Origin: an uncultured Phycisphaerales bacterium
Lineage (GTDB): Bacteria; Planctomycetota; Phycisphaerae; Sedimentisphaerales; Anaerobacaceae
DNA length: 14,779 nucleotides
Direction: 5' to 3'
Assembly: GCA_937927975.1 (NCBI GenBank)
Contig: CALEZT010000029.1
Coordinates: 1-14,779 of the forward strand
Every line of letters starts with the position of its first letter. Position 1 is the first letter of the stretch. The notes under the pieces were generated by a model. That model was not told the origin of the DNA. It was given only the letters and a program-made list of their open reading frames with translations, and made no database searches. Shown one piece after another: positions 1 through 14,730 of the stretch. The translations under genes were made by a program, and so were the position numbers.

Positions 1-47
1 GAGTTCGTATTCGGTGACTGGAGTTCAGACGTGTGCTCTTCCGATCT
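1..47. other. Sequencing adapter remnant at contig end
   Basis: Bases 14-47 match the 34-base Illumina TruSeq read-2 adapter, ending in GTGCTCTTCCGATCT. Bases 1-13 sit where the P7 tail and i7 index would lie, but I cannot assign them exactly. This stretch is an untrimmed library artefact. It must not be annotated as gene sequence, although an open reading frame runs through it from the GTG at 33 and adds five false residues (MLFRS) to the terminase. Confidence 0.96.
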
Positions 48-1133
48 CTGCTGGCGTGTATCTGCGATGAATTGGCATTCATGGGTCTGGACGAGGAAAG
101 TAAGGTCCGCAGTGATACCGAACTCGTTCGAGCCATCCTTCCATCGTTGGCGACTACCGGCGGGAAGTTCATCGGGATCAGCAGTCCATACGCTCGGAAG
201 GGATACTGCTGCACAACCTTCAAGCGGTATCACGCCAACAATAGCGGCAAGGTGCTTGTGTGGAACTGCCCATCGAGGACCATGAACCCGACGTTGCCTC
301 AGTCTGTCGTTGATGAAGCGATGGCGGAGGACCTCGCAGCCGCCAAGAGCGAATACCTGGGCGAGTTCCGGGACGACGTTTCGTTGTGGCTGCCCATCGA
401 GGTCATCCAGCAATGCGTTATCGAAGGCCGCAAGGAGCTTTTGCCCCGCAAAGGCGTTTCATATTTCGCGTTCGCGGATCTGTCTGGTGGTCGTTCCGAT
501 TCCGCGGCATTATCCATCGCCCATGCAGCCGACGGCAAAGTCATTCTCGATTGTCTGCGGCAGTGGCGGGCTCCCTTCAATCCGACGTTGGCGATTCAGG
601 ATATGAGTGACCTGTTGAAATCCTACGGGCTGCGACATTGCGTGGGCGATAGGTATGCGGGCGAGTTCGTCCGGCAGGCGTTCGGCAAGTGCGGCATCAG
701 CTACAAGGCGGCCGAGCGGTCGAAATCCGAATTGTATCTGGATTTCCTCTCTCGTCTGTGCTCCCAGCAGGTGGAGTTGTTGGACGACGAAACGCTCATC
801 AAACAGCTTGCCAGTCTGGAGCGGCGAACCCGAAGCGGCGGCAAAGATACGGTCGATCATCCGCCCGGCAGCCACGATGATTGTGCGAACTGTGCGGCAG
901 GCGTGGCAAGTATGGCGTCCAGACCGGTCTTCAAGATCGGATTCGCCAGGTTCGACCGGAACCCGCTGATGCGTCGGCGGCTGATGCCGGGCCAGTCACA
1001 GGCAGGGCCTACGCTGGGGCAAGCTCTACTGGGGCTCGCCACGAGGGACGTGCCGCCAGTATCGCAGCCGCCACAATCGCAACCGGAGATGTCACCCGCG
1101 AAGCGATACATGAAACCAACGAGAAACTATTAA
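48..1133 (+). CDS. terL: Phage terminase large subunit, 5'-truncated
   Basis: This is the ATP-driven DNA-packaging motor and nuclease of tailed phages. The window keeps the end of the ATPase domain and the whole nuclease domain. A Walker-B-like CDELAF has its Asp-Glu at 66-71. It is followed by a coupling-type motif, GISSPYARKG, at 174-203. The RNase-H-fold nuclease shows candidate metal-binding acids in ADLSGGRSD (Asp at 477), VGDRYAG (Asp at 648) and HPPGSHDDC (Asp at 876 and 879). The last 80 or so residues are a Pro/Gln-rich tail. The Walker A part is missing only because the contig ends there; the first genuine codon is CTG at 48. The gene stops with TAA at 1131-1133. Three small phage-type genes follow in the same direction with short gaps, as in a packaging module. 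Identification rests on the motif order; the exact catalytic acids are inferred. Confidence 0.9.
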   Translation: MLACICDELAFMGLDEESKVRSDTELVRAILPSLATTGGKFIGISSPYARKGYCCTTFKRYHANNSGKVLVWNCPSRTMNPTLPQSVVDEAMAEDLAAAKSEYLGEFRDDVSLWLPIEVIQQCVIEGRKELLPRKGVSYFAFADLSGGRSDSAALSIAHAADGKVILDCLRQWRAPFNPTLAIQDMSDLLKSYGLRHCVGDRYAGEFVRQAFGKCGISYKAAERSKSELYLDFLSRLCSQQVELLDDETLIKQLASLERRTRSGGKDTVDHPPGSHDDCANCAAGVASMASRPVFKIGFARFDRNPLMRRRLMPGQSQAGPTLGQALLGLATRDVPPVSQPPQSQPEMSPAKRYMKPTRNY

Positions 1134-1164
1134 AACGATACGTATGCAGGGAAAGGATTATGAA

Positions 1165-1836
1165 ATGACGGAACAGGAAAACAAGCTGGCAGCATTCGAC
1201 AAGGCCCACGAAGGCGAGGATGGTTTCGTCATCGACCCGAGCGGCGTTTGGGTCTTGTATAGCGACGGTGCCAGACGGAGCCGCGAGGCCTACGGCCCAC
1301 TGGGTCAGGCTCTTGTTGAACCGGATCGAAACGAAGCCGAACGTCGGCGGCAGCAGTTGCTCTTCTGGACGATCCGCCTGAAACAGTTGGTGGATGCGTT
1401 CACCAGAACGAAGACCGCCGCTGAGAATACCACGCAGGACGAACCGCGTTTCCGGCAGAACCTTGAACGGTTGAAAGAACTGCAAACGGCGGTCCGATCC
1501 GCCAGGAGCAAGCTCAGCCATTTGCAGACGCTGGAGCGGGGTTATACGTCGTCCGATGTTGAGCGGGCGTGGGATGTATGGCAGGAGTTTGCACAGGCCA
1601 TCCGGGAGGAGTCCGAAGCCCGCCGTAAGTTCGAGAACGCCCTATTGAACAAGTCGTCTCCTGGCCTCCTCGAAAAGCTCAAGGCCAAGCTCGACGAAGC
1701 CCAGCGGCAGGCTCACCGATGGATGGAACGATGGAACAATTTCAAGCCTGCCGAAGCCCGCGACAATGTATCGGAGCAACTGGATACCCAACGACGCCAG
1801 GAACGTGAAAGCGAATTGGCAGAAATCGAAGTCTGA
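1165..1836 (+). CDS. Hypothetical phage protein, coiled-coil
   Basis: I do not recognise a named family. The product is 223 residues, very rich in Arg, Glu, Gln and Lys, with no signal peptide or membrane segment. A short N-terminal part with the string DPSGVWVLYSDGARR (near residues 30-45) looks folded. From about residue 65 to the end it reads as long charged helices that probably form coiled coils. I chose ATG 1165 rather than the in-frame ATG 1144 because AAGGA at 1153-1157 lies seven bases before it. It starts 31 bases after the terminase stop and 24 bases before the next gene, so it is most likely in the same transcript. A scaffold or accessory role in head assembly would fit this position, but nothing in the sequence proves it. 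Confidence 0.75.
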   Translation: MTEQENKLAAFDKAHEGEDGFVIDPSGVWVLYSDGARRSREAYGPLGQALVEPDRNEAERRRQQLLFWTIRLKQLVDAFTRTKTAAENTTQDEPRFRQNLERLKELQTAVRSARSKLSHLQTLERGYTSSDVERAWDVWQEFAQAIREESEARRKFENALLNKSSPGLLEKLKAKLDEAQRQAHRWMERWNNFKPAEARDNVSEQLDTQRRQERESELAEIEV

Positions 1837-1860
1837 TTTATGGATGAAAGGAAGTGCCGT

Positions 1861-2169
1861 ATGAAAGACCTGATGCTCCACACAAGGGAGAGCGATGAGG
1901 ACCTCGTCCGCTACGAGGATGAGGCCGACGATCCACGGTTCGACTCCGGTTCGGGAACCGCGTCCGCTCCGGTCCTGAATTGTCCGAGAGCAACCGCCGA
2001 GAGCCAGAACGCCCGAAACGTCAGCGATGGGCTCCCGGTCTTGGAGGTGCCGAAGCACAACGTGAAACCGAAGCAGACCGACAAGGCCAAGACCGTGGCG
2101 AACGATGACGACAACAGTGGCGATGTTCCGACGCTGGAAACGCCCACAGACGAACTCAGGAGGCAATGA
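1861..2169 (+). CDS. Hypothetical small acidic phage protein
   Basis: Unrecognised protein of 102 residues. It has a strongly acidic N-terminal third (DEDLVRYEDEADD), no membrane segment and little hydrophobic content, so it is probably largely disordered. Two short related segments, DGLPVLEVP near residues 62-70 and GDVPTLETP near residues 88-96, look like a degenerate internal repeat and might be binding motifs. ATG 1861 is preferred over the upstream in-frame ATG 1840 because AAGGAAG at 1848-1854 is spaced six bases before it. The stop overlaps the start of the next gene (TGATG), which indicates translational coupling. The function is unknown. Confidence 0.65.
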   Translation: MKDLMLHTRESDEDLVRYEDEADDPRFDSGSGTASAPVLNCPRATAESQNARNVSDGLPVLEVPKHNVKPKQTDKAKTVANDDDNSGDVPTLETPTDELRRQ

Positions 2170-2408
2170 TGGCATTGTACAGATTGATGACACGAGATCG
2201 GCACGGCCTCAAGGTCGGCAAGCATTCGATGGGTCCGGTGGAGGGCGGCGTGTTTTCGCGGGTCGTGAAGCCCGGCGAGATCATCGAGTCCGAACAGCCG
2301 TTGGACCAGTTGTTCCGCAACAAATTCGAGCGGGTGCATGACGTGACGCCGGAGCCGGAAGCCGAGCCGAAGACCGCCAAGATGCCCCCACGTAAGGTGA
2401 AGAGGTGA
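2169..2408 (+). CDS. Hypothetical small basic phage protein
   Basis: Unrecognised protein of 79 residues. The body (MALYRLMTRDRHGLKVGKHS and on to FERVHD, about residue 58) looks like a compact folded domain. The last 20 residues are a Pro/Lys/Glu-rich tail ending PPRKVKR, which could contact nucleic acid. Two adjacent start codons exist, ATG 2166 and ATG 2169. The perfect AGGAGG at 2158-2163 is five bases from the second and only two from the first, so 2169 is preferred. It overlaps the stop of the preceding gene by one base. It is the last gene of the small cluster after terL; no portal gene follows, which is unusual for an intact head module. Confidence 0.65.
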   Translation: MALYRLMTRDRHGLKVGKHSMGPVEGGVFSRVVKPGEIIESEQPLDQLFRNKFERVHDVTPEPEAEPKTAKMPPRKVKR

Positions 2409-2579
2409 CCGGCCCTGAACAAATCTCGATTCATGACGGCCGCGAAGCCCGCTCGCGGTCCTGGCGGGGCCTTCCCCGGCAGGCTCCTTACGACGCCCAC
2501 GTCGCGGGTCCCTGGACGTGGGACGTTCTTTGCGACAATCCGCCGACCGGTCAAACTCATTCTCTTCCATCGGCGGCTG

Positions 2580-2610
2580 GGGGGCTGGCAGTTCGTTTCG
2601 TCCAGCCCCC
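2580..2610. repeat. Perfect 9-bp inverted repeat
   Basis: GGGGGCTGG at 2580-2588 and CCAGCCCCC at 2602-2610 are perfect complements separated by 13 bases. The run that follows on the + strand is TATAAAAAAA, not T-rich. On the - strand the T-run comes before the stem. It therefore does not have the form of an intrinsic terminator in either direction. It could be an RNA structure or a protein-binding site. Confidence 0.7.
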
Positions 2611-2680
2611 TATAAAAAAATCTGGCATCGGGGCGATTTGGGCATGAGAGTACGATAATATAGATGGAAGGGGGTGGCAC

Positions 2681-2704
2681 GGCTCGGGAGTAGCTACCTG
2701 AGCC
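2681..2704. repeat. Imperfect palindrome upstream of integrase
   Basis: GGCTCGGG at 2681-2688 pairs with CCTGAGCC at 2697-2704 with a single G-T mismatch. The eight-base spacer and its edges contain the palindrome GTAGCTAC. Size and form would suit an operator or one arm of a serine-recombinase attachment site; neither can be shown from the sequence alone. Confidence 0.45.
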
Positions 2705-2705
2705 G

Positions 2706-2781
2706 GACCATCAAACCTTCGACCGGATGGTCGGCCACCCCTCTTTTTGATAACCGAGTCGGTCGAAGGGAAGGGTCGAAG
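2706..2781. promoter_or_regulatory. Candidate operator repeats before integrase
   Basis: GACCATC at 2706-2712 has its complement GATGGTC at 2726-2732. CCTTCGACC at 2716-2724 has its perfect complement GGTCGAAGG at 2761-2769, and GGTCGAAG recurs at 2774-2781, 13 bases further on. The last copy covers the translation-start region of the recombinase (ATG 2784). A protein bound to these copies could block its expression, so autoregulation or control by an element-encoded repressor is a reasonable inference. Confidence 0.4.
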
Positions 2782-2783
2782 AT

Positions 2784-4544
2784 ATGACAACTGAATCGGA
2801 CAAGAAGCTCAGGGCAGTATCGTACTGCCGGACGAGCAGCGAGGGCCAGCGGGACAACACATCAATCCCACGGCAGAGGGAGGACAACGAGAAATTCATC
2901 GCCTCGCAGGGATGGGAGTTCGTCCGGCACTACGTCGATGAGTCTTTGACCGGCAGCAAGGTCGAAGGCCGCGAAGACTTCCAACGGATGATGCGGGACG
3001 CGACGGACGGGCAATTCGATGTGATTGTCTGCTGGGATGTTACGCGATTCGCACGGGATGGCTGCGACATCGTCAGCAACGCGAAGTTCCTCAAAACTAC
3101 CTTCGGCGTCCACGTCGTTGACACGAAGGGGCAATTCGACAACCGGGACCATCGCAGGACGTTGACGAATTTTGTTCAAGCTGGCGTGGCGGAGGATGAA
3201 CGGCTGAGGATTATGGAGCGTTTGGTCGGTGGACGCATACGGCGGGCAAAGGAAGGTCTGCCGTGGGGGTCCAAACTCCCCGCTGGTCGAGCATTCAAAC
3301 GAACCGGCAAACACACCGGTGAATGGTATGTTACAGAGGAAGGCGAGAGGCTTCGGGAGTTGCTCACACGATACGCAGATGGCGAGCCGCTCAAGGTGTT
3401 GTGCCGCGAGTACGGAGGTATCTCGTCCCAAGCGATAACGCGAAATGTCCGTGAGAGCCAATTGGCGGGTACGTTCCATGCGAAGTTCAACGCACCGGAT
3501 ATCGGCATGAAGAACCTCAAGATAGCCGTTCCGGGCGTGCCGCCAGTCATCACGCCGGAGCTTGAGCAACGGGTCAAGGCCCGAATGGCCCACAATCAGA
3601 AGTGGAACAAACAAGAGAAGCAAAAGTACCTTCTCGGGGGTTTTGTGACGTGCGCACATTGCGGACGTCCCCTGTGCGGCCAGACCAACGGTGACTATGT
3701 CTACTATCGACACGTCTACCAGTACGGTGAGAAACGCAAGTGCCCCTATCGCTGCATTCAGGGCAACCTGCTGGATACTCATGTTCTTGACCACTTGTAC
3801 AGCTTCTTCCTCGACGAACCTGCCTACAACGAAGCTGTCAAAGCAACCCTGCCGTCGGACGATGACCGAAAGGTGCTTGCCAAAGATATCAAAGCGGCCG
3901 AGAGACGGCTGATCGCTGTGGGCAAGGAGATCGGGAACCTTGTCAACGCGATCGCGGCCGGAGCGGACGTGGGCCTTCTATTGGACAAACAGCACCAGCT
4001 AAAAGCTGAGAAGCAGACGTTGGAAACCCGCTTGGACGATCTGCGGCAGACCCTCGCGACCATGCCCAGCCGGGAGCACTTGGAGAGGGACGCGATGCTT
4101 CTGAGGCTGCGGCTGGTTCAGGAGTACAAAGGCCGCGACTGGCGGAAACTGCCCTACGGGGAAGTCCGACGGTTCCTCCACTTCCTGTTCGGGGACAATC
4201 CGAAGGCTAAGGGATATGGCATCTTCGTCGAATGCAAGGGTGACGTTTGGCACGTGACCTTCAAGGGCTGCGTCGAGTTCTACCATGACGTTGTGAATGG
4301 CAGGCCAATATCTCACGCATTGCAGGCAGCGGCCGAAACCGCCAATCGGGAAATCCGAGGCATCCTCAAGGAGGGCATCGAGCGTGCGAACGCAGAGTAC
4401 GAGCAGGCCATGAAGAAACTGGAGCGGTCTCGTGGCGTCGTAAAACCTGACAATGATCCTTTCGTGGCAAGCACTTACAAACCGGGGGCAAGGTACGGGT
4501 TGAACGTTCGCCTTCTGAGCACATTCACCATGGCCCCGTCGTAA
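2784..4544 (+). CDS. Large serine recombinase (phage integrase)
   Basis: This is a site-specific recombinase that joins attP and attB through a Ser-DNA intermediate. At 586 residues it is in the usual size range of large serine recombinases. The N-terminal resolvase domain (about 9-155) has YCRTSS with the nucleophile at Ser18, and the conserved TRFARDG segment. A recombinase domain follows (about 160-280). A zinc ribbon comes next, with Cys290, Cys293, Cys320 and Cys324 as likely ligands. A coiled coil lies at about 365-430 (KDIKAAERRLIAVGKEIG onward), the part that controls synapsis and directionality in this family. No key residue is missing, so it is probably active. The ribosome site is weak (GAAGGGAAGG at 2764-2773), which may keep expression low. 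It lies at the edge of the phage-like region, consistent with an att-proximal integrase. A transposon-borne recombinase is possible, but the terminase module favours a prophage. Confidence 0.93.
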   Translation: MTTESDKKLRAVSYCRTSSEGQRDNTSIPRQREDNEKFIASQGWEFVRHYVDESLTGSKVEGREDFQRMMRDATDGQFDVIVCWDVTRFARDGCDIVSNAKFLKTTFGVHVVDTKGQFDNRDHRRTLTNFVQAGVAEDERLRIMERLVGGRIRRAKEGLPWGSKLPAGRAFKRTGKHTGEWYVTEEGERLRELLTRYADGEPLKVLCREYGGISSQAITRNVRESQLAGTFHAKFNAPDIGMKNLKIAVPGVPPVITPELEQRVKARMAHNQKWNKQEKQKYLLGGFVTCAHCGRPLCGQTNGDYVYYRHVYQYGEKRKCPYRCIQGNLLDTHVLDHLYSFFLDEPAYNEAVKATLPSDDDRKVLAKDIKAAERRLIAVGKEIGNLVNAIAAGADVGLLLDKQHQLKAEKQTLETRLDDLRQTLATMPSREHLERDAMLLRLRLVQEYKGRDWRKLPYGEVRRFLHFLFGDNPKAKGYGIFVECKGDVWHVTFKGCVEFYHDVVNGRPISHALQAAAETANREIRGILKEGIERANAEYEQAMKKLERSRGVVKPDNDPFVASTYKPGARYGLNVRLLSTFTMAPS

Positions 4545-4563
4545 CCTCCACACAGACAACATG

Positions 4564-5040
4564 TTACAAGCCCCGGCATTCTTGTATGTCACTCGCCAGA
4601 GGGGGCGCGTGCCAAATGCGTGCCAAATCGGCGTTTGCGGTCCTGATACTCGCCTTGCGGGCGCGGTCGATCATGTCGTCGCGAACCCACAGGCAGAATT
4701 TGTGTGTGGTGCTGAAGTTCGAGTGACCCGCAAGCTTCATGACCTCGAACTCACTGAGACTCCTGGCCAGCCAGTTGCTGATCGCCGTTCGCCTCAGATC
4801 GCGGAACGTGCCATGATCAATGCCCGCACGCCGGAGAATCTTGCCGAAGGCAATATTGAACTTCGGGATAAGTGCCTGACGCGAATCGGAGTGCCGCCAC
4901 TTGCCCTTGCCCCGCAGCATCCCCGTGCACAAGGCCACGAAGACCAGCAGATTCCAGCGGACTACAGCTCCGGCCTGGCGTTGGTGAACGAAATCCTGGG
5001 CGGCTCTGACGATGCGGGCCGCACGCCGACGCCCTGACAT
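4564..5040 (-). pseudogene. Decayed tyrosine integrase fragment
   Basis: The 158 residues resemble a tyrosine recombinase catalytic domain with large losses. Box I is recognisable in VALCTGMLRG. After it the sequence jumps almost directly to IDHGTFRDLRRT and LAGHSNFSTTHKF, so roughly 100 residues of a normal catalytic domain are gone. The nucleophile position after STTHKF is Cys (TGC) instead of Tyr, and the fragment contains no tyrosine at all. The usual His of the HxxR motif is Arg (FRDLRRT). The N-terminal arm- and core-binding domains are not found upstream. The reading frame is still open to TAA at 4564-4566, and a strong AAGGAGG (5047-5053) lies six bases before ATG 5040, so a short protein could be made, though it could not cut DNA. 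It converges on the serine recombinase with 19 bases between stops and is probably a relic of an earlier element. Confidence 0.85.
4607..4628. repeat. Tandem 11-bp repeat
   Basis: GCGTGCCAAAT occurs twice back to back at 4607-4617 and 4618-4628, inside the 3' end of the integrase fragment. It may be a slippage duplication acquired during decay, or a remnant of an attachment or arm-binding site. Eleven bases is not a multiple of three, so if it was acquired late it also shifted the frame of the integrase C-terminus. Confidence 0.7.
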
Positions 5041-5363
5041 CGAAACCCTCCTTGACACACTCTGGGCGGGCCGGCGAAATACGGGACGCCAGCCCGGACA
5101 ATTCTGGCATGACGCTACCGCTGATCCACAAGGGACGCTGGCTCTCTGCGAACCGGGGGAGGGATTCACAGCAGCCTTCCATTCGATGACTCGTTCCGTT
5201 CGTTACGGAGATTATCTGCTTGACTTTGCCATCCGGCGGGTCAATATGTCCAGCAGACTGCCAAGGCAACATTGACGGGTGACTCTGCTGATTCGTGGAT
5301 GGATGGGGGCGCCTGCAAGGGCTGCCGCATGAGATCACCAGGAGAACACCGGGACGAGCTTCT
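5041..5363. other. Intergenic region before the PAS kinase
   Basis: This 323-base stretch lies between the divergent integrase fragment and the histidine kinase. I find no integrase N-terminal sequence in any - strand frame. A + strand frame over 5012-5275 has no ribosome site or recognisable motif. It most likely contains the kinase promoter and possibly the old element boundary. Apart from the promoter candidate listed separately, I see nothing further in it. Confidence 0.6.
5220..5247 (+). promoter_or_regulatory. Possible sigma-70-type promoter for kinase
   Basis: TTGACT at 5220-5225 is followed after 16 bases by CAATAT at 5242-5247, about 117 bases before the chosen kinase start. The -35 box is good and the -10 box poor. 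A second TTGACA at 5052-5057 has no convincing -10 partner. This is a weak, pattern-only prediction. Confidence 0.25.
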
Positions 5364-8300
5364 ATGACAGAACACCGCAGAAACGAAGCCAATGATCGGC
5401 CGGCAGCATCCGCCCCGGGGGAATTGGAGCGACTGCGTCGCCGAGTGGCGGAACTGGAACGTCGGGAGGCCGAGCACAGGCAGAAGGAACAGGCCCCGGG
5501 GCAATCAGACGAACGATTTCGCCTGTTCTATGAACAATCCCCTCTCGGATACCAGTCTCTGAATGCGGACGGTCGCATTCTTGAAGTCAACCCGGCCTGG
5601 CTCAAGATCCTCGGATATGAGCGGGACAACGTGGTGGGACGGTGGTTTGGGGATTTTCTTACGCCTGACTCTCGGCAGGTGTTTCCGGATCGCTTTGCAC
5701 GGTTCAAGGAGGTCGGCGAGGTCCACGATGTGCGGCTTGAGATGGTCTGCGGAGACGGTCGGATCCGATGCGTCGAGTTCGACGGGAGGATTTCGCGGAC
5801 GCCGGAGGGACATTTCGACCGGACGCACTGCGTTCTGCGGGATGTAACCGAACGCAGAGAAGCGGAGCAAGCCATCCGACGGAACGAGGCCCGATATCGC
5901 CTCTTCGTGGAGACGACGAACGAAGGGATTTGGGCCATGGACGCCGACCACAAGACCACCTTCGTCAATGCCCGGATGGCCGCGATGCTGGGGTATGCCG
6001 AGGAGGAGATGATCGGACGGGTGGTCGAGGAGTTCATGTTCGACGAGGATCTGCCCGCACACCGGGACCGGATGGCCACTCGACACGAGGGGAAGGCAGC
6101 GCGGTACGAACACCGTTTCCGTCGCAAAGATGGAGGGGAAGTGTGGACCCTCGTGTCGGCAACCGCCCTCACGTCGTCGCAGGGTCGGTTTGAAGGTTCC
6201 TTCGCCCTGTTCGCAGACATCACGGAGCGTAAACGGACTGAGGAAGCCCTGCGCCGAAGCGAGGAACGGTTTCGGGCCATTTTCGACGGCGCCGCCGCGA
6301 TGGTCGCCGTAGCGGACACCGGCGGACGCTGGGCGCACGTCAACCAGCACATGGCAAATCTGCTTGGTTACTCGGCTGGGGAACTGACCGGAATGCGAGC
6401 CCTCGACATCACGCATCCCGACGACCGACCGGAGGCCCAGGCATTGTTGGGCAGACTGCTCAATGGCGAGATTCCCTCGTACCGCATGGAGCGACGCCAT
6501 GTTCGCAAAGACGGCGGGGTCGTTTGGGTCGATCTCTCGGTCAGCCCGCTGCACGGCAATCAGGGCCAAATCGAGGGTTTGATCGGGGTGGCTTTCGATA
6601 TCACCGAGCAGAAGAAGTCTGCTTGGGCCCTGCAAGAGAGCGAGCAGAAATTCCGCGCCATCGCGGACTACACGTATGATCTTGAACTCTGGGCCGGGAG
6701 CGATGGGCGATTGATCTGGATGAACCCGGCGACCGAGCGGTTCACCGGCTACACCGCCGAAGAGTGCCAGGCGATGTCCGACTTCCCGACGCGGTTGATC
6801 CACGAACAAGATCGCGCGCGTGTCCTGGCACTGTACCGACAGGCGTGCGAAGGAGGCTCGGGCAATGACGTTCAGTTTCGCATCGTCCACCGCGATGGCA
6901 CGTTTACCTGGGTGTCCGCATCGTGGCAGTCCATTTGCGGACAAGACGGGGCCGACCTCGGGTGGCGCTGCAGCATCCGCGATATCGACGACCGGGTTCG
7001 AATCGAAGAGGCGTTGCGCGACTCGGAGGAAGTGTTCCGCACCGTCTTCGAGCAGGCGGCCGTCGGCATCGCCCAGGTGACGCCGGAGGGCCGTTTCGAA
7101 CATGTGAATTCTCGCTTGTGCGACATCCTCGGGTACTCCCGGGACGAACTACACAAGATGACCTTCCGCGATGTGACGTACCCCGAAGATCTGGAGCTTG
7201 AAGAGACCGACATCACCCGTGTGCTGGCCGGGGAGATCGATTCCTTTGAGATCGAAAAACGATACCTCCGCAAGGACGGACGTCTTGTTTGGGTGAAACT
7301 GTTCTCCAATGTCGTCCGGGATGAGCAGGGTCGGGTGAGGTATGCGATCGCGAGTGTGGTGGATATCACCGCGATCAAGGAGTCCGAGGAATCGCTGATC
7401 GACAGTTCGCGAAGACTAGACGAGACGATCCGGGCCGGAAACGTCGGTCTTTGGGATTGGGATCTTGCCACGAATCGGGTCCGGTATTCCGCGGAGTGGA
7501 AACGGCAGATCGGATACGAGGAAGACGAGATCGGGGATGCCTTCGAGGAATGGGAAAGCCGCGTCCATCCCGATGACCTGGAGCCGACGCTCGTCCGGAT
7601 CCGACAGGCCATTGCGGACGGCAAGGCCCGCTATCAGGTCGAATTCCGCTTCCGCCACAAGGATGGGACGTATCGTTGGATTCTCACTCAGGCCTCGGTC
7701 TTCCGCGACGAAGAAGGGCATCCAAACCGCGTGCTGGGTTCGCACATCGACATCACCGACCGCAAGCGGTCGGAGGAACTGCTGCGTTTGACGTCGCAGA
7801 TGCTCGACGCCGCACCGAGCTCGATTACCGTCCACGATTTCCAAGGGCGATTCCTCTACGCCAACGCAAAGACGTTTGAGATTCACGGGTGCTCGCCGGA
7901 GGAGTTCATGGCGATAAACCTCCACGATCTGGACATCCCGGAGAGCGAGGCGCTGATCGCCGAGCGGATGCAGGAGATCGCCGCTCGTGGAGAGGCCTCT
8001 TTTGAGGTGTCCCATCGCCGCAAAGACGGATCCAGCCTCCCCCTCGAAGTCTATGTCAAACAGGTCGTGTGGGATGGGGTCCCGGCCATGTTGAGTGTCG
8101 CGACCGATATCACCGAACGCAAGCGCGCTCACGAAGCGGTCGAGGGCCAGCGGGCGGAGTTGGAGGCCATCTACGAAAATGCACCGGTGATGATGTGCGT
8201 GCTGGAGAGCGACCGTCGCGTGCTCTATGCGAACCGTGCCTTCAGCGAATTCACAGGGTGCTCCCAGGAGCAGTTGAAGGCCGGTCGCGCCTGCGGGGTC

Positions 8301-10247
8301 TTCGGATGCATCAACGCCCTGTCGGACCCGCGAGGCTGCGGGTATGGGAGCGACTGTGAGCATTGTTCAATCCGCCTGGCCATGGAAGACACGTTCCAGA
8401 CCGGAACGAGCCATCGCGACATCGAGTATCACGCCACCCTGGAGCGCCGCGGCGCGCGACGCGAAGTCGTCCTCCTGGGGGCCACCGCGAGAATCGAGGG
8501 AGAAGGCCGATACAATCTCCTGCTTTGCCTGCAGGACATCACCGACCGCAAGCGGTCGGAGACCCGACTCCAGCAGACAACGAAGCTGCTGCGAGCCATC
8601 CGAGACGCGCAGAGCCTCTACATCGCGGGGGCTGAGACCAGGGAGGTCTACAATGCCCTGTTGCAGACTCTGGTGACCATGACCGACAGCGAGTTTGGCT
8701 TCCTGGACGAAGTCCTCCGAGACGAGGCCGGGCAGTTGTACAAACGAAGTCTGGCCATCTCCGACATCTCCTGGGACGAACATTCTCGCAGACTGTATCA
8801 ACAGCTTGTTCAGGGGAACCTCGAATTCCGGAATCTGGACAATCTCGCGGGCCTGCCCGCTGCTACGGATTCGTTGGTGATCTCCAATGCTCCTGATCAA
8901 GACCCGCGATCCGGCGGGGTCCCCAAGGGCCACCCGTCCCTTCGCACGTTCATGGGAGTGCCGATGCACTTCGGCGGTCAGATCCAGGGCGTGGCCGGAG
9001 TAGCCAATCGACCGGGAGGTTACGACGAGCGGATCGCCGAATTCCTGGAACCGTTCGTGGCCACCTGCGCCGGCATCATTCACGCGGTTCAGAACGATAC
9101 CAAGGAACAGCAGTACAAAGAGGCGCTGCGGGAGAACCACGCCAACCTGCTGGCCATTCTCGAAAACACCGAGGACCTGATCGCCTCGCGCGACCGCGCC
9201 GGTCGTCTGGTGTTCTACAACACCGCTTTCGCCCGCATGGTCAAACGGCTGTTCAACGTGGAGGCGCAGTCCGGACTCCGAACGATGGATTATCTGCCGC
9301 CGGACAAGCGGGAGCATTGGGAGCAGGTCCTCTCTCGCGTCCTGGCGGGGGAGCGCGTGCGCGAAAATTTCAGGTGGGACCACGGCAACCAGAATGTACG
9401 CTGGTATGAGATTTCCTTCCATCCCATCCGAAAGGGCGAGGAGACTATCGGCACGGTCGAGTTCAACAGGGATATCACCGAACAGAAGCGACTGCAGGCA
9501 GAGGCCGAACAGCGGCAGCGGGAATTGTATCGCATCTCCCGGCTCAGCACGCTGGGCGAAATGGCTTCGGGCATCGCCCACGAGCTCAACCAACCGCTCA
9601 CCGCGATCCTCAGCTACGGAGAGGCCTGCCAGCGCCGCATGCAGGCCGACTCCCCGGATTTGTCTTTGATCACCCAATACCTCGAGCAGATTGTCTCACA
9701 AGGCCAGCGGGCGGGACTGATCATTCGTCGCATGCGGGCCATGGCGAAGGGACAGCAGGCCCAATTCGTTTCCGCGAACCTCAATGAGACCATTGAGGCC
9801 GCCGTCGGGATGATCCGGTGGGAACTGTCGCAAAACGAGATCGCAGTACGTGTGGACATCGCCGAATCACTGCCGCCGGTGTATGGCGATCCGATCCAGA
9901 TCGAGCAGGTCCTGCTGAATCTGATCCGCAACAGCGTGGACTCCATGGGAGGCGTGCCTCCGGAACAACGTTCATTGACGGTGCGAGCGACCCTGTTGGA
10001 CGACGATCGCCTTTGTGTGGAAGTCTGTGATTCGGGAATCGGACTGCCCCCGGCAGACCAGGGCAGCGTCTTCGATCCGTTCTTCACCACGAAGCCCGAC
10101 GGGCTGGGGATCGGCCTGTCGATCAGCCGCTCCATTGTTGAGGCGCACCGCGGAACCCTTGAGGCCAGGAACAATCCCGACCATGGGGCAACCTTCTCGC
10201 TCACCCTGCCTGTTCGGAAAATGGCCGACGAGCGGGAACCGAGGTAG
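5364..10247 (+). CDS. Giant soluble multi-PAS/GAF sensor histidine kinase
   Basis: It autophosphorylates on His and passes phosphate to a response regulator, probably the FixJ-type one downstream. Layout in 1627 residues: coiled coil about 18-45; PAS domains at about 49-165, 174-290, 299-417, 426-545, 554-672, 681-801, 806-920 and 927-1063, most ending in a DIT(E/D)-type exit motif; GAF about 1074-1245; ninth PAS about 1255-1375; HisKA with phospho-acceptor His1406 in GIAHELNQPL; HATPase with N-box Asn1523, DSGIGLP, FDPFFTTK and GLGIGLS. All catalytic boxes are intact, so it should be active. There is no membrane segment or signal peptide, so it senses in the cytoplasm. PAS8 carries Cys977, 982, 992, 998 and 1001, a possible metal or redox site. 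ATG 5364 is preferred to ATG 5295, which would add 23 atypical residues and has no ribosome site, but 5364 also has only a weak one. The HisKA type resembles FixL/NtrB kinases. Ligands are unknown. Confidence 0.93.
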   Translation: MTEHRRNEANDRPAASAPGELERLRRRVAELERREAEHRQKEQAPGQSDERFRLFYEQSPLGYQSLNADGRILEVNPAWLKILGYERDNVVGRWFGDFLTPDSRQVFPDRFARFKEVGEVHDVRLEMVCGDGRIRCVEFDGRISRTPEGHFDRTHCVLRDVTERREAEQAIRRNEARYRLFVETTNEGIWAMDADHKTTFVNARMAAMLGYAEEEMIGRVVEEFMFDEDLPAHRDRMATRHEGKAARYEHRFRRKDGGEVWTLVSATALTSSQGRFEGSFALFADITERKRTEEALRRSEERFRAIFDGAAAMVAVADTGGRWAHVNQHMANLLGYSAGELTGMRALDITHPDDRPEAQALLGRLLNGEIPSYRMERRHVRKDGGVVWVDLSVSPLHGNQGQIEGLIGVAFDITEQKKSAWALQESEQKFRAIADYTYDLELWAGSDGRLIWMNPATERFTGYTAEECQAMSDFPTRLIHEQDRARVLALYRQACEGGSGNDVQFRIVHRDGTFTWVSASWQSICGQDGADLGWRCSIRDIDDRVRIEEALRDSEEVFRTVFEQAAVGIAQVTPEGRFEHVNSRLCDILGYSRDELHKMTFRDVTYPEDLELEETDITRVLAGEIDSFEIEKRYLRKDGRLVWVKLFSNVVRDEQGRVRYAIASVVDITAIKESEESLIDSSRRLDETIRAGNVGLWDWDLATNRVRYSAEWKRQIGYEEDEIGDAFEEWESRVHPDDLEPTLVRIRQAIADGKARYQVEFRFRHKDGTYRWILTQASVFRDEEGHPNRVLGSHIDITDRKRSEELLRLTSQMLDAAPSSITVHDFQGRFLYANAKTFEIHGCSPEEFMAINLHDLDIPESEALIAERMQEIAARGEASFEVSHRRKDGSSLPLEVYVKQVVWDGVPAMLSVATDITERKRAHEAVEGQRAELEAIYENAPVMMCVLESDRRVLYANRAFSEFTGCSQEQLKAGRACGVFGCINALSDPRGCGYGSDCEHCSIRLAMEDTFQTGTSHRDIEYHATLERRGARREVVLLGATARIEGEGRYNLLLCLQDITDRKRSETRLQQTTKLLRAIRDAQSLYIAGAETREVYNALLQTLVTMTDSEFGFLDEVLRDEAGQLYKRSLAISDISWDEHSRRLYQQLVQGNLEFRNLDNLAGLPAATDSLVISNAPDQDPRSGGVPKGHPSLRTFMGVPMHFGGQIQGVAGVANRPGGYDERIAEFLEPFVATCAGIIHAVQNDTKEQQYKEALRENHANLLAILENTEDLIASRDRAGRLVFYNTAFARMVKRLFNVEAQSGLRTMDYLPPDKREHWEQVLSRVLAGERVRENFRWDHGNQNVRWYEISFHPIRKGEETIGTVEFNRDITEQKRLQAEAEQRQRELYRISRLSTLGEMASGIAHELNQPLTAILSYGEACQRRMQADSPDLSLITQYLEQIVSQGQRAGLIIRRMRAMAKGQQAQFVSANLNETIEAAVGMIRWELSQNEIAVRVDIAESLPPVYGDPIQIEQVLLNLIRNSVDSMGGVPPEQRSLTVRATLLDDDRLCVEVCDSGIGLPPADQGSVFDPFFTTKPDGLGIGLSISRSIVEAHRGTLEARNNPDHGATFSLTLPVRKMADEREPR

Positions 10248-10347
10248 ACAAACTGGCTCCAATGCACCAGAATGACTGGAGAGAAACCGTCGTGACGTCC
10301 GATCATAGAATCATATGCTCTCCCCAGCACAAAGGAGTTCTTCACCG

Positions 10348-10977
10348 ATGGAACCGCAGCAACCTACTGTGTTTGTGGTGGACGACGATGAGGCGGCGAG
10401 AATGGGCGTAGAGGCCTTGGCGGCCAGCGTTTCATTCAAAGTGGAGGCCTTCGCATCGGCCCAGGAGTTCCTCGATGCCTGTTCGCCCGACGCATTCGGA
10501 TGTCTGCTGCTGGACGTGCGTATGCCCAACATGAGCGGGTTGCGGCTCCAGGACGAGTTGAACCGCAAGCAATTCAATCTGCCGATCATCTTCATCACAG
10601 GGCACGGGGACGTCGCCATGGCGGTTGAGGCCTTCCAGAGAGGGGCGTTCGACTTCATTGAGAAGCCGATCCGGGGCCAGGTCCTCCTGGAGAAGATCCA
10701 GGACGCCATCGAGAAACACAAGCGTTTGCTCCTCCACAAGGCCAGGATGGAGCAGATCCAGAGGCGAAAGGCCCTGCTGACGGAGCGGGAGCTTGAGATC
10801 CTCGATTGCGTGCAACAGGGACAGGGCGCCAAGTCGATTGCGCAGCAGTTTCGTCTGAGCCGTAAGACCGTCGACGCTCACATGGCTGCGATCCGCCAGA
10901 AGATGGGGGTCGACTCCACGTCTCAGTTGGTCTTGCTGTTGTGCCAGAGCGGCCTCTTGCATCCGTCCTCCGCCTAG
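10348..10977 (+). CDS. FixJ/NarL-type response regulator
   Basis: This is a DNA-binding transcription regulator switched by phosphorylation, 209 residues long. The receiver domain (about 6-120) has the acidic pair Asp12/Asp13, phospho-acceptor Asp56 in LLLDVRMP, Thr84 in ITGHGD and Lys106 in DFIEKP; the TGHGD and DFIEKP strings are typical of FixJ receivers. A LuxR-type helix-turn-helix follows (LTERELEIL, SIAQQFRLSRKTVDAHMA, about 141-200). ATG 10348 is chosen because AAAGGAG at 10331-10337 precedes it by ten bases; an upstream in-frame ATG 10315 would put that site inside the gene. It lies 100 bases after the giant kinase and is followed by a strong terminator, so the two form a transcription unit and most likely a cognate pair. 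Target genes are not visible; the cheW operon next door is possible but unproven. Confidence 0.93.
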   Translation: MEPQQPTVFVVDDDEAARMGVEALAASVSFKVEAFASAQEFLDACSPDAFGCLLLDVRMPNMSGLRLQDELNRKQFNLPIIFITGHGDVAMAVEAFQRGAFDFIEKPIRGQVLLEKIQDAIEKHKRLLLHKARMEQIQRRKALLTERELEILDCVQQGQGAKSIAQQFRLSRKTVDAHMAAIRQKMGVDSTSQLVLLLCQSGLLHPSSA

Positions 10978-11277: not shown

Positions 11278-11820
11278 ATGGCGGCAACATCGGTTCAGAA
11301 CAAAGAACGCGGGGCCCTGCTGGACAAGGAGGGCAAGTACCTGACCTTCGCCCTGGCCAACGAGGAGTACGGACTGGAGATCCTCAAGGTCCGCGAGATC
11401 ATCGGGTACATCGATGTGACCGCGGTGCCCCAGACGCCCCACCACGTCAAAGGCGTCATCAACCTCCGCGGGCAGGTGATCCCCGTCATCGACCTGCGGG
11501 CCAAATTCGGCATCGCCACCACCGAGGTCACCGATCAGACCTGCATCATTGTGGTGGAGATCACGCAGGCCGGACGCAAGTTCAACACCGGCATCATCGT
11601 CGACCGCGTCCAGGAGGTCCTGGACATTGCCGGCCAGGACATCGAGGAGGCCCCGCAGTTCGGCGCCTCGGTGGACACCAACTTCATCCTGGGCATGGGC
11701 AAGATCGGGGACAAGGTCAAGATCCTGCTGGATATCGACCGCGTCCTGGCCGGCGGCGACCTCGGCGCTCTGGGGGGCCGCTCCGTGGATCTTCCGCAGA
11801 CGACAGAGTCGGAGAACTGA
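11278..11820 (+). CDS. cheW: Chemotaxis coupling protein CheW
   Basis: CheW links chemoreceptors to the kinase CheA in the signalling array on the inner side of the membrane. The 180-residue product is one CheW domain (about 18-160). It has the opening strand KYLTFALANEEYGLEILKV, the segment EIIGYIDVTAVPQTP, the characteristic KGVINLRGQVIPVIDLR at 58-74, and the later DRVQEVLDI and KILLDIDRVL. Length is normal for the family, with a slightly extended N-terminus and a short polar C-terminus. The start is set by AAGGAG at 11266-11271. It lies 87 bases before the carbonic-anhydrase chemoreceptor on the same strand, so it probably serves that receptor. No cheA, cheR or cheB is present in the window. 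A 10-base direct repeat, GACAGAGTCG, sits just before and across its stop codon (11802-11811, 11819-11828). Confidence 0.95.
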   Translation: MAATSVQNKERGALLDKEGKYLTFALANEEYGLEILKVREIIGYIDVTAVPQTPHHVKGVINLRGQVIPVIDLRAKFGIATTEVTDQTCIIVVEITQAGRKFNTGIIVDRVQEVLDIAGQDIEEAPQFGASVDTNFILGMGKIGDKVKILLDIDRVLAGGDLGALGGRSVDLPQTTESEN

Positions 11821-11907: not shown

Positions 11908-14730
11908 ATGTTTAAGAAAATGAAGCTCGGAACGAAGATCTCTCTCGGTTTCTTCTGCCTTGTCGTGATTGTCGTCGTCTTGGGCGCCGCCGCCATTTGG
12001 AGTATGAAGACCGTTGAAGGGCAGTCGAAGACGCTGGCGAATGCGTATGTGCCCGAGGTGAAGGTGGCGAACAACGTGGAACGCTCCGCGCTGCACACGA
12101 TGTATGAGATGCGAGGTTACGGGTTCACGGAGGACGTCAAGTTTCTCGAACGAGGTCGCGCGAAGCTGGAGGAGGTGAAGAAGTACCTCAAAGAAGCCAA
12201 AGACCTTTCGGATCAGTCCGCAGAACTGGCAGAACTAAGAGACGCGGCGGCGACAGCCGAGGCGAAGGCAAAGGAATACGAAGATCTGGTCGGCCAGACG
12301 GTTGCGAAGAACCAGGCAATTGCCGGCGATCGCCAAAAACTCGATCACGCCGCGGCGGAGTACATCAAGCAGTGCACCGAGTTCCTTGCACATCAGACGG
12401 AGCTGATGAAGGGCGAACTTGGAGGCGCCGCGGAGCACGCGGACGCAAGGACACGCGGATCAGGCCACACCCCCACCGCAGCCCATCCTCCGGCCGCAAC
12501 CGTCCGTACGCCGATTGTGGCGATGCCGTGTCCTGTGGCCGACGAGGTCATCGAGCAACTCAAGCAAGGCAACAAGCGGTACGTGGACGGCCAACTCGCC
12601 ACACCCCATCTGGATCAGCCGCGACGGGCGGAAACCACATCGAAAGGACAGCGCCCGCAGGCGACCATTCTGGCGTGCTCGGATTCCCGAGTCCCGGTCG
12701 AGTCGATATTCGATCAGGGCATCGGCGACGTCTTCTCCGTACGCGTGGCGGGCAACGTCTGCGGCATCGATGAACTGGGGACAATCGAGTATGGCGTCGG
12801 GCATGTGGAGACACCGCTCGTCGTCGTGCTCGGCCACACGAAGTGCGGGGCCGTGACAGCCGCTGCCACCGGTGCGGCAGTCCATGGCAGCATTCCGGCG
12901 CTGCTGGACGACATCCAGCCGGCCGTCGACCAGGTCAAGAACAGTCAACCCCACTTGACCGGCGAGGCTTTCATTGACGCCTGCGCCACGGTGAACGTAT
13001 GGCGTTCCATTGAGCAGATGCTCACGCAAAGCCAGGTCCTGCAGGAACGGGCCAAGACGGGCAAGGTGAAGATCGTTGGCGCGGTCTACCACATCGGCGA
13101 GGGCACGATCGAATGGCTGGGTACGCACCCGAGGCAAAGCGAGCTGCTCGCCGTCGCGGTCCAGGAAAACCATAATTCCGCCGGCGCGACTGCCCTTGCA
13201 ACAGCCCAAGACGCTGCCAAGCGACTGGAACGGCTGGAGAAAATCCTGCTTGTCAATGAGATCATCGACTTGGGCAACGAGACCCGTATTGCGTGCTTCA
13301 AATCCCAGGCCCTTCGCGAGCCGAAGCTGATCGAGGCCGCCAATAAGCACTTCGAGGAGATGGACGCCAGGTTCGCAGCGCTCCGCAAGATCACTCACCT
13401 CAAGGAGGATCTGGATCGCATCGACCTGACCAAGAAGGCTGCGGATGAATACAAGACGGCGATGAACGATCTGTTGTCGAACTGGCTCGCCCTGCAGGAT
13501 ATTGCACAGAGACGTCAGGTCGCGGCCGATGCGGTTCTGGAGCAGGCGACAACGACGGCGGCAAAGGGCATAGAAGGCACGGAAGAGATTGCCCAGGAGG
13601 CCGCTCGTTCCCTGGCGATGTCATCGATCACCCTCATCATCGGTCTGATCGTAGCGGTTGTCGTCAGCGTGACTCTGGCGGTGTTCATCACACGCAGCGT
13701 CACCGGCCCCATCCGCAAGATCATCGCCGCCCTGACGGACGGGTCCGAGCAGGTCGCCTCCGCTTCGGGGCAGGTCTCTGCGGCTTCTCAGTCGCTGGCC
13801 GAAGGCGCCACGGAGCAGGCGGCGGGTCTCGAAGAGACCTCCTCCAGTCTGGAGGAGATGTCTTCCATGACCAAACAGAACGCGGACAATGCCCAGCAGG
13901 CCAACACGTTGGCCGCCGAGGCGAAGAAGGCGGCCGCCACCGGCGCTGAGTCGATGAGCCGGATGAACGCCGCGATCCACGAAATCCAGAAGAGTTCCGA
14001 CGAGACCGCCAAGATCATCAAGGTCATCGACGAGATCGCCTTCCAGACCAACCTCTTGGCCTTGAACGCAGCCGTCGAGGCGGCACGAGCGGGTGAGGCG
14101 GGCAAGGGCTTCGCCGTGGTCGCCGAAGAGGTGCGAAACCTCGCCATGCGGTCCGCGGAGGCGGCCAAGAACACCGCCAGCATGATCGAAGAATCGGTCA
14201 AGAACTCCAAGAACGGCGTGGACATCGCCACCGAAGTCGGCAAAGTCCTCGAAGAGATCGTCCAGAGTGTCAGCAAGACCACCGATCTGGTCAGCGAGAT
14301 CGCTGCGGCTTCTCAAGAGCAGGCGCAGGGGATCGATCAGGTCAACACGGCCGTCTCGCAGATGGACAAGGTCACCCAGCAGAATGCCGCCAATGCCGAG
14401 GAATCGGCCAGCGCTTCGGAAGAACTGAGCGCCCAGGCCGAGAGCATGCAGGAGGTCGTAGGTCAACTGGTGGCGATGGTCGGGGGGGCCAACTCACAGA
14501 AGACCCGTTCGGTGGAAACCAAGCCGGACCGCCATCACATTCATCTGAACCTGGAGCACAAGCTCCACATGAGCGAGAGGCCCAAGTCACGGGGCTTCGG
14601 CAGGTCGGATGAAGTTCTGCACAAGATCGCCGACCACGGGGACAAGGCCCCGCGCGCAGCGGCCCAGTCGGCCCGCAAGACGATTCCACTGGACAGCAGC
14701 GAAACCGACTTGAGCGAGTTCAACCACTAA
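11908..14730 (+). CDS. Chemoreceptor with inserted carbonic anhydrase
   Basis: A methyl-accepting chemotaxis protein of 940 residues. TM1 is at about 12-31 and TM2 at about 574-595. The helical extracytoplasmic sensor (HBM-like, about 32-171 and 436-570) is interrupted by a complete beta-carbonic anhydrase at about 210-411. The anhydrase shows predicted Zn ligands Cys257, His310 and Cys313 and Asp259/Arg261 of CSDSR. Linkers (172-209, rich in Ala/Pro/His, and 412-435) flank it. After TM2 a short RSVTGPIRKI stub, with no clear full HAMP domain, leads into the signalling coiled coil with hairpin tip EIAFQTNLLALNAAVEAARA starting at 709. A His-containing tail (876-887) and an acidic end, DLSEFNH, follow; no NWETF-like CheR tether is seen. 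ATG 11908 is set by GGAAAGG at 11894-11900; an upstream ATG 11839 is unlikely. It probably forms an array with CheW from the preceding gene. Known: beta-anhydrases interconvert CO2 and bicarbonate. Inferred: this receptor reads CO2, bicarbonate or the resulting protons. Confidence 0.93.
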   Translation: MFKKMKLGTKISLGFFCLVVIVVVLGAAAIWSMKTVEGQSKTLANAYVPEVKVANNVERSALHTMYEMRGYGFTEDVKFLERGRAKLEEVKKYLKEAKDLSDQSAELAELRDAAATAEAKAKEYEDLVGQTVAKNQAIAGDRQKLDHAAAEYIKQCTEFLAHQTELMKGELGGAAEHADARTRGSGHTPTAAHPPAATVRTPIVAMPCPVADEVIEQLKQGNKRYVDGQLATPHLDQPRRAETTSKGQRPQATILACSDSRVPVESIFDQGIGDVFSVRVAGNVCGIDELGTIEYGVGHVETPLVVVLGHTKCGAVTAAATGAAVHGSIPALLDDIQPAVDQVKNSQPHLTGEAFIDACATVNVWRSIEQMLTQSQVLQERAKTGKVKIVGAVYHIGEGTIEWLGTHPRQSELLAVAVQENHNSAGATALATAQDAAKRLERLEKILLVNEIIDLGNETRIACFKSQALREPKLIEAANKHFEEMDARFAALRKITHLKEDLDRIDLTKKAADEYKTAMNDLLSNWLALQDIAQRRQVAADAVLEQATTTAAKGIEGTEEIAQEAARSLAMSSITLIIGLIVAVVVSVTLAVFITRSVTGPIRKIIAALTDGSEQVASASGQVSAASQSLAEGATEQAAGLEETSSSLEEMSSMTKQNADNAQQANTLAAEAKKAAATGAESMSRMNAAIHEIQKSSDETAKIIKVIDEIAFQTNLLALNAAVEAARAGEAGKGFAVVAEEVRNLAMRSAEAAKNTASMIEESVKNSKNGVDIATEVGKVLEEIVQSVSKTTDLVSEIAAASQEQAQGIDQVNTAVSQMDKVTQQNAANAEESASASEELSAQAESMQEVVGQLVAMVGGANSQKTRSVETKPDRHHIHLNLEHKLHMSERPKSRGFGRSDEVLHKIADHGDKAPRAAAQSARKTIPLDSSETDLSEFNH
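12535..13140 (+). other. Beta-carbonic anhydrase domain within chemoreceptor
   Basis: This marks the inserted domain only. It opens with VADEVIEQLKQGNKRYVDG, the usual start of this family, and contains ILACSDSRVPVE, the strand VFSVRVAGNV, VVVLGHTKCGAV, VHGSIPALLDDI and the closing KVKIVGAVYHIGEG...EWLG. All three zinc ligands and the Asp-Arg dyad of beta-class enzymes are present, so catalysis is plausible. The similarity, as I remember it, is closest to stand-alone beta-anhydrases that carry export signals and work in the periplasm, which fits the predicted location outside the inner membrane. No frame break or stop occurs at either border. Confidence 0.93.

Follow-up and report, generated by a model that had tools for sequence, protein, structure and literature searches.

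Why would a bacterial chemoreceptor carry an entire carbonic anhydrase (CA) within the part of the protein that senses? The question is raised by a gene on a 14,779-nucleotide stretch of DNA from an uncultured Phycisphaerales bacterium (contig CALEZT010000029.1, forward strand), hereafter called the window, to which all coordinates refer. The gene (11908..14730, plus strand) encodes a methyl-accepting chemotaxis protein (MCP) of 940 residues, running from an ATG at 11908 to a stop codon at 14730 in a single open frame without internal stop, and most relatives share this ATG as the start of the alignment or begin no more than 5 residues away. Judged from sequence, the CA-bearing chemoreceptor is confirmed as real and recurrent, with its active-site residues intact; its function we infer.

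Layout of the receptor

The preliminary description of this DNA had placed a CA in frame inside an MCP, and this was borne out, as a Pfam Pro_CA match (residues 252-400) and an MCPsignal match (residues 668-823) share one frame with two transmembrane (TM) stretches. The MCP signalling domain (13909..14376, plus strand) scored 164.2 bits against a curated cut-off of 34.6 (E = 3.3e-48), and residues 596-851 aligned with the E. coli receptor chain 8c5v_I (E = 4.1e-56 for that stretch). Hydropathy analysis of the whole protein gave only two TM stretches, residues 6-36 (11923..12015, plus strand) and 566-599 (13603..13704, plus strand), which flank the sensor. Since the CA lies between them, it is predicted to be on the outer side, and the sensor together with the CA is predicted to be periplasmic. 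Third-position GC in the receptor frame was high throughout, at 0.66-0.86 in blocks of 100 codons, with 0.75, 0.83 and 0.76 in the blocks holding the CA.

The inserted domain retains the residues of a beta-CA

The beta-CA domain spans residues 209-414 (12532..13149, plus strand) and has both the beta-CA fold and a Pro_CA match well above the cut-off (134.6 versus 25.7 bits, E = 4.5e-39). Beta-CAs are defined by Cys-His-Cys zinc ligands plus an Asp-Arg dyad. In the window receptor, a C-S-D-S-R motif (12676..12690, plus strand) holds Cys257 with Asp259 and Arg261, and an H-T-K-C motif (12835..12846, plus strand) holds His310 and Cys313; we take Cys257, His310 and Cys313 to be the zinc ligands and Asp259-Arg261 to be the dyad. 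All five residues, which had been named in the preliminary description, were recovered at their positions in the translated frame. They are invariant in an alignment of 27 rows (the window receptor and 26 relatives) whose members were collected through homology to the sensor plus CA, with no motif used to select them. We infer that the tethered CA is enzymatically active.

The CA interrupts an HBM-like sensor at a predicted turn

An AlphaFold2 model and a match to McpS divide the sensor into a first half of residues 38-171 (12019..12420, plus strand), comprising H1 (after TM1), H2 and H3, and a second half of residues 433-565 (13204..13602, plus strand), comprising H4, H5 and H6 up to TM2; the CA is inserted at the predicted turn between H3 and H4. 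The two halves had been said to read as one continuous sensor once the insert is removed, and eight aligned CA-less relatives agree with this, having only a short joint at the site (about 10 residues in six and 25 residues in two). The CA-free sensor was folded and searched using a CA-less relative as a stand-in for the window's sensor. The sensor is modelled with the six-helix bimodular fold of McpS, to which it is 12% identical. Its Pfam HBM score of 23.1 bits falls under the cut-off of 29.8, and CHASE3, another family of helical sensors, scored 24.0 bits (cut-off 28). At E-values up to 0.5, HBM matched 20 of the 27 family members (best 5.9e-8), CHASE3 matched 23 and 4HB_MCP_1 matched 21. 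We thus keep the HBM part of the preliminary description with regard to the predicted fold but not to the Pfam family, and call the sensor HBM-like by its modelled fold while assigning no HBM family membership.

The borders of the CA, given previously as residues of about 210-411, were refined to linker 1 (residues 172-207; 12421..12528, plus strand), the CA at 209-414 and linker 2 (residues 415-432; 13150..13203, plus strand). Linker 1 is mostly predicted disordered, with a predicted local distance difference test score below 50 in the AlphaFold2 model at residues 173-199, and is rich in Ala, Gly and Pro (composition taken over the 27 rows); disorder is predicted in linker 2 at residues 422-431. 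The linkers measure about 35 and 18-23 residues and are largely predicted disordered. His-rich linkers acting as metal or proton binders were considered and set aside, the enrichment being mild: His makes up 5.5 and 7.3% of the linkers, 2.5 and 1.4% of the sensor halves and 3.7% of the CA, and one row of the 27 has no His in either linker.

Cys208 (12529..12531, plus strand) immediately precedes the CA fold and is invariant in the 27 rows. The stretch from 56 to 41 residues ahead of the first zinc Cys contains a Cys in 29/29 insert-type proteins but in only 3/93 N-terminal-type domains, 2/80 domains of CA-only proteins and 2/72 standalone CAs. Apart from Cys208 and the zinc ligands, no Cys is invariant in the insert-type family. 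Being constant here and rare elsewhere, Cys208 points to a special constraint at the border of linker and CA; as a matter of speculation, it might serve as a dimer cross-link or in redox.

One residue of the sensor, His162 near the end of H3 (12391..12393, plus strand), may be regarded as a lead only. It occurs in 17/26 CA carriers versus 1/41 non-carriers and tracks the CA in four of six independent pairs, never opposing it, which is not significant for a residue chosen post hoc (median sign-test p = 0.125). Co-variation of the sensor tip with the presence of the CA was likewise not significant tip-wide (15/258 shifts).

CA-bearing receptors recur in three arrangements

A search with the first 585 receptor residues matched 288 proteins, and the best 120 of the 288 were examined. 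The insert layout was found in 26 relatives besides the window receptor among the matches listed, at 42-61% identity. Two further searches added P0174, P0177 and P0206, giving 29 insert-type relatives in total, all on other contigs; the window's own receptor protein was found on three contigs. Three of the insert type (P0018, P0020 and P0021) end or lose the frame ahead of the signalling motif, and another relative, P0005, is a partial record. An insert-type frame at 9107-10903 of contig C227 in genome G320, probably P0020, likewise has no signalling-domain motif and may be a short or broken copy.

A script classified the 256 distinct proteins listed by motif and TM order, searching for Cys-x-Asp-Ser-Arg and Gly-His-x-x-Cys; it misses degenerate CA copies and disregards hydrophobic stretches within the CA. 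It returned 27 insert-type receptors with a signalling motif (the window included), 74 receptors with N-terminal CAs (one CA in 53, two in 19 and three in 2), one CA-MCP protein fitting neither form, 49 CA proteins without an MCP motif (among them the three short insert-type ones), 100 proteins with an MCP motif but no CA motif, and 5 lacking both, counts that mirror the queries and not abundances. The preliminary description had asked for the same architecture in other genomes, and at the protein level the 29 insert-type relatives and the 74 N-terminal CA receptors provide it.

Where a source is named, insert-type receptors come from Phycisphaerae, Tepidisphaeraceae, Planctomycetaceae and Candidatus Hydrogenedentes, and those of the N-terminal type from Zixibacteria, Caldithrix, Pirellulales, Phycisphaerales and Desulfopila aestuarii DSM 18488, whose protein P0137 combines two Pro_CA stretches with HAMP and MCPsignal. 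A hydrophobic stretch precedes the first CA in 67 of the 74 N-terminal fusions and is absent in 7, so that by TM order the CA is predicted to lie outside in the insert form and in those 67. Between CA and TM these fusions have a long linker (median 83 residues, 70 measured). The insert form is rare in sampled genomes: at a match threshold of E = 1e-75 or better, it was found in at least 2 of the 397 genomes sampled from the class of one carrier and in at least 1 of 392 from its phylum, the carrier itself being counted each time and at most 3 candidates per genome being scored among the rows listed.

The CA and the receptor also occur as neighbouring genes. Among 80 loci chosen by CA similarity, a CA-MCP fusion was present in five and a separate nearby MCP gene in five others. 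In a metagenome-assembled genome (MAG) of Spirochaetia (locus L015, 293-4583), CA, MCP, receiver and CheW genes follow one another, the CA and MCP genes lying on the same strand with a gap of 27 bases and the MCP having 4HB, HAMP and MCPsignal domains; the row amounts to a CA receptor split into separate genes. At L032, in a Magnetococcales MAG, CA and MCP genes on one strand are separated by 86 bases. Of the remaining three loci, L017 shares its MAG with L015, and a single predicted frame separates its CA from its MCP; in L031 and L037 the distance from CA to MCP exceeds 3 kb. CA receptors were accordingly observed in three arrangements, namely as an insert (27 proteins and 3 stopping short), as an N-terminal fusion of one to three CAs (74) and as neighbouring genes (L015 and L032).

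The CA as an optional cassette

A quick tree built from 131 CA domains placed the 29 insert-type CAs on one side of a single branch with moderate support (Shimodaira-Hasegawa-like approximate likelihood ratio test, 88), adjoining, with weak support, the CAs of other fusions. The sensors behaved otherwise, and a single clade of insert-bearing sensors was rejected by the approximately unbiased test (p = 3.1e-49; 45 hand-picked rows, 25 versus 20). The sensor-half tree of these 45 rows required 8 changes, at least 5 of them forced by supported branches; a wider quick tree (86 rows, three of its branches long) also required 8, at least 6 of them forced, and a tree of 67 rows required 7, numbers that cannot separate gain from loss. 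The CAs of P0015, P0016 and P0020 are nested within the insert-type family and their sensors among CA-less receptors, a mismatch suggesting that the cassette was swapped in. P0081 and P0092 have no CA, are nested among carriers and have kept a 25-residue linker, a position and a leftover that point to loss of the CA. Given these apparent swaps and losses, the CA behaves as an optional cassette.

Four other CA-less receptors (P0230, P0107, P0240 and P0242) have 23-54 residues at the H3-H4 joint, possibly from further losses or other inserts. Extra tandem half-sensor copies were read by eye in the CA-less P0060, P0062 and P0063, where the sensor seems to grow by repeats.

Proposed mechanism and alternatives

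We propose that this two-TM MCP, with its beta-CA at the predicted H3-H4 turn, senses inorganic carbon through the interconversion of CO2 with HCO3- and H+ by the tethered enzyme, a proposal towards which, on balance, we lean. Held by a flexible tether, the CA would bring periplasmic CO2, HCO3- and H+ into equilibrium next to the sensor, and the sensor would respond to the anion (bicarbonate) or the proton. CA turnover could in this way make dissolved CO2 visible to a sensor able to bind just a small carboxylate-like anion or a proton, and binding at the dimer interface would be relayed by CheW to CheA, changing its activity as other receptors do. Beta-CAs pair as dimers, and such pairing could also join the two CA domains that sit at a receptor dimer's tip. 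For most HBM sensors characterised to date the ligands are small organic acids; binding takes place at the dimer interface and stabilises the dimer (PMC5126104), so that a bicarbonate-reading sensor of HBM fold would be a small step. That an HBM-like sensor reads dissolved CO2 directly is unlikely, whereas bicarbonate could be readable, as could pH by a helical sensor.

On the sequence evidence, the CA is a plausible enzymatic input for inorganic carbon or pH. Several features favour an enzymatic reading: conservation of the active site; predicted disorder of the linkers on both sides, which is what a tethered enzyme needs; the association of the CA with a receptor in several topologies; and the occurrence of the sensor without it. 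Of the two modes considered in the preliminary description, the less favoured is the one in which the CA acts on the helical bundle directly and mechanically, given the predicted disorder of both linkers and the CA-less receptors with a leftover linker inside the family.

The CA could instead be a binding lobe with no enzymatic role, in which occupancy by bicarbonate or CO2 alters CA-CA pairing at the dimer tip and the movement is passed to the helices. The constancy of Cys208, perhaps a dimer cross-link, would fit such a lobe, as would the action of HBM ligands through dimer stabilisation (PMC5126104); however, the full catalytic set is invariant, beyond the needs of occupancy alone, the linkers, largely predicted disordered, should uncouple rigid motion, and N-terminal fusions hold the CA by a long linker before the TM. 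We regard the binding lobe as unlikely.

Slightly less likely still, the receptor may be a mere anchor that holds a periplasmic CA at the array for carbon supply or pH buffering, while the sensor answers an unrelated organic acid. Eight fusions tie this kind of CA to other membrane proteins too, and the sensor is frequently found without a CA (among the 256 listed proteins, 100 have the MCP motif and no CA). Against this, CA and MCP are joined in 102 of the 256, though the queries favour such proteins; a plain lipid anchor or TM would suffice for anchoring, and the neighbouring-gene form at L015 sits with receiver and CheW genes. The eight fusions (P0037, P0038, P0040, P0050, P0125, P0126, P0128 and P0197) join the same kind of CA to Pfam PF07396, which we take to be a porin family, and seven of them have two CA copies by motif.

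It is very improbable that the CA fold takes another substrate, carbonyl sulfide (COS) or CS2, and reports that gas. By sequence nearness the inserted CA groups with Rv3588c (111.3 bits, 35% identity) far more closely than with COS hydrolase (24.4 bits) or CS2 hydrolase (16 bits); identity to 3vqj is 19%, and the bit scores disfavour either hydrolase identity. A CA gene misjoined into an MCP gene during assembly has a negligible chance, for although the contig start resembles an adapter, suggesting imperfect trimming at the far end, the frame is intact over both borders, the window's protein is listed on three contigs, and the 29 insert-type relatives, on other contigs and from several sources, rule the artefact out.

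Relation to known receptors and CO2-sensing systems

The window receptor differs from the HBM receptors McpS, McpQ and McpK in the enzyme inserted at the H3-H4 turn, besides its low identity to McpS and its HBM score below the cut-off. Rv3588c-type beta-CAs (2a5v, 1ym3) and the free bacterial CAs of that family are separate proteins, whereas the window CA is an internal receptor domain with the constant Cys208. CO2 sensing in animals and fungi has two parts, a carbonic anhydrase and a bicarbonate-activated cyclase. There, as proposed here, a CA makes bicarbonate for a receptor, but the parts are separate proteins and not one chemoreceptor; the title of a PDB entry names Can2 a CO2-sensing carbonic anhydrase. 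To our knowledge, TlpA of Helicobacter pylori, which recognises arginine and bicarbonate, has no enzyme domain. Its likeness to the window receptor lies in being a bacterial receptor that answers bicarbonate, a response that has been reported (PMC10058440). The CtpL-PstS system is similar in that the ligand of an HBM sensor is prepared by another periplasmic protein (PMC5126104); a carrier protein is recognised there, while a covalently held enzyme is proposed for the window receptor.

A chemoreceptor with an enzyme as its input module appears undescribed in the literature searched. No description of a CA-bearing chemoreceptor was found among the matches listed in open-licence PMC full text, judged by title and start of abstract. 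The review PMC6321045 counts more than 80 types of chemoreceptor ligand-binding domain and does not contain the word 'carbonic', and 'carbonic anhydrase' is absent from PMC5088516. Some relatives carry the JGI label 'methyl-accepting chemotaxis protein/carbonic anhydrase', so that the co-occurrence is visible in databases and undiscussed in the literature searched. Our impression is that bacterial steering by dissolved CO2 or bicarbonate has been little studied, the open-licence papers listed in a search being mostly on nematodes and Helicobacter.

A broader view, which we hold to be evenly poised, is that enzymatic chemoreceptors form an undescribed class over several phyla that transforms the stimulus before reading it, a beta-CA cassette having been gained, swapped and lost among HBM-like sensors (by insertion, N-terminal fusion or neighbouring gene) and making an anion or proton sensor a CO2 nose. 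If this is true, stimulus conversion would join direct binding and carrier-protein binding as a mode of chemoreception. With its own CA in the receptor, steering by CO2 is testable through point mutants of the zinc ligands and classical CA inhibitors, and the receptor provides a natural blueprint for building a genetically encoded CO2 sensor.

Surroundings of the receptor gene

Directly upstream of the receptor gene lies a gene for a CheW coupling protein (11278..11820, plus strand; CheW match, E = 4.3e-36). It is preceded, at 5295-10977, by a gene for a 1650-residue histidine kinase with many PAS domains and one GAF domain and then by one for a response regulator with a receiver and a LuxR-type domain. 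No tRNA was found in the window. Mobile-element genes lie to the left of this signalling cluster (33-5169), namely a terminase large subunit (33-1133), a serine recombinase (2784-4544; PHROG integrase), presumably of the large serine type, and an integrase-like frame on the minus strand (4564-5169). Positions 1-47 are apparently untrimmed sequencing-adapter sequence, so that the frame opening at 33 probably has an artefactual start.
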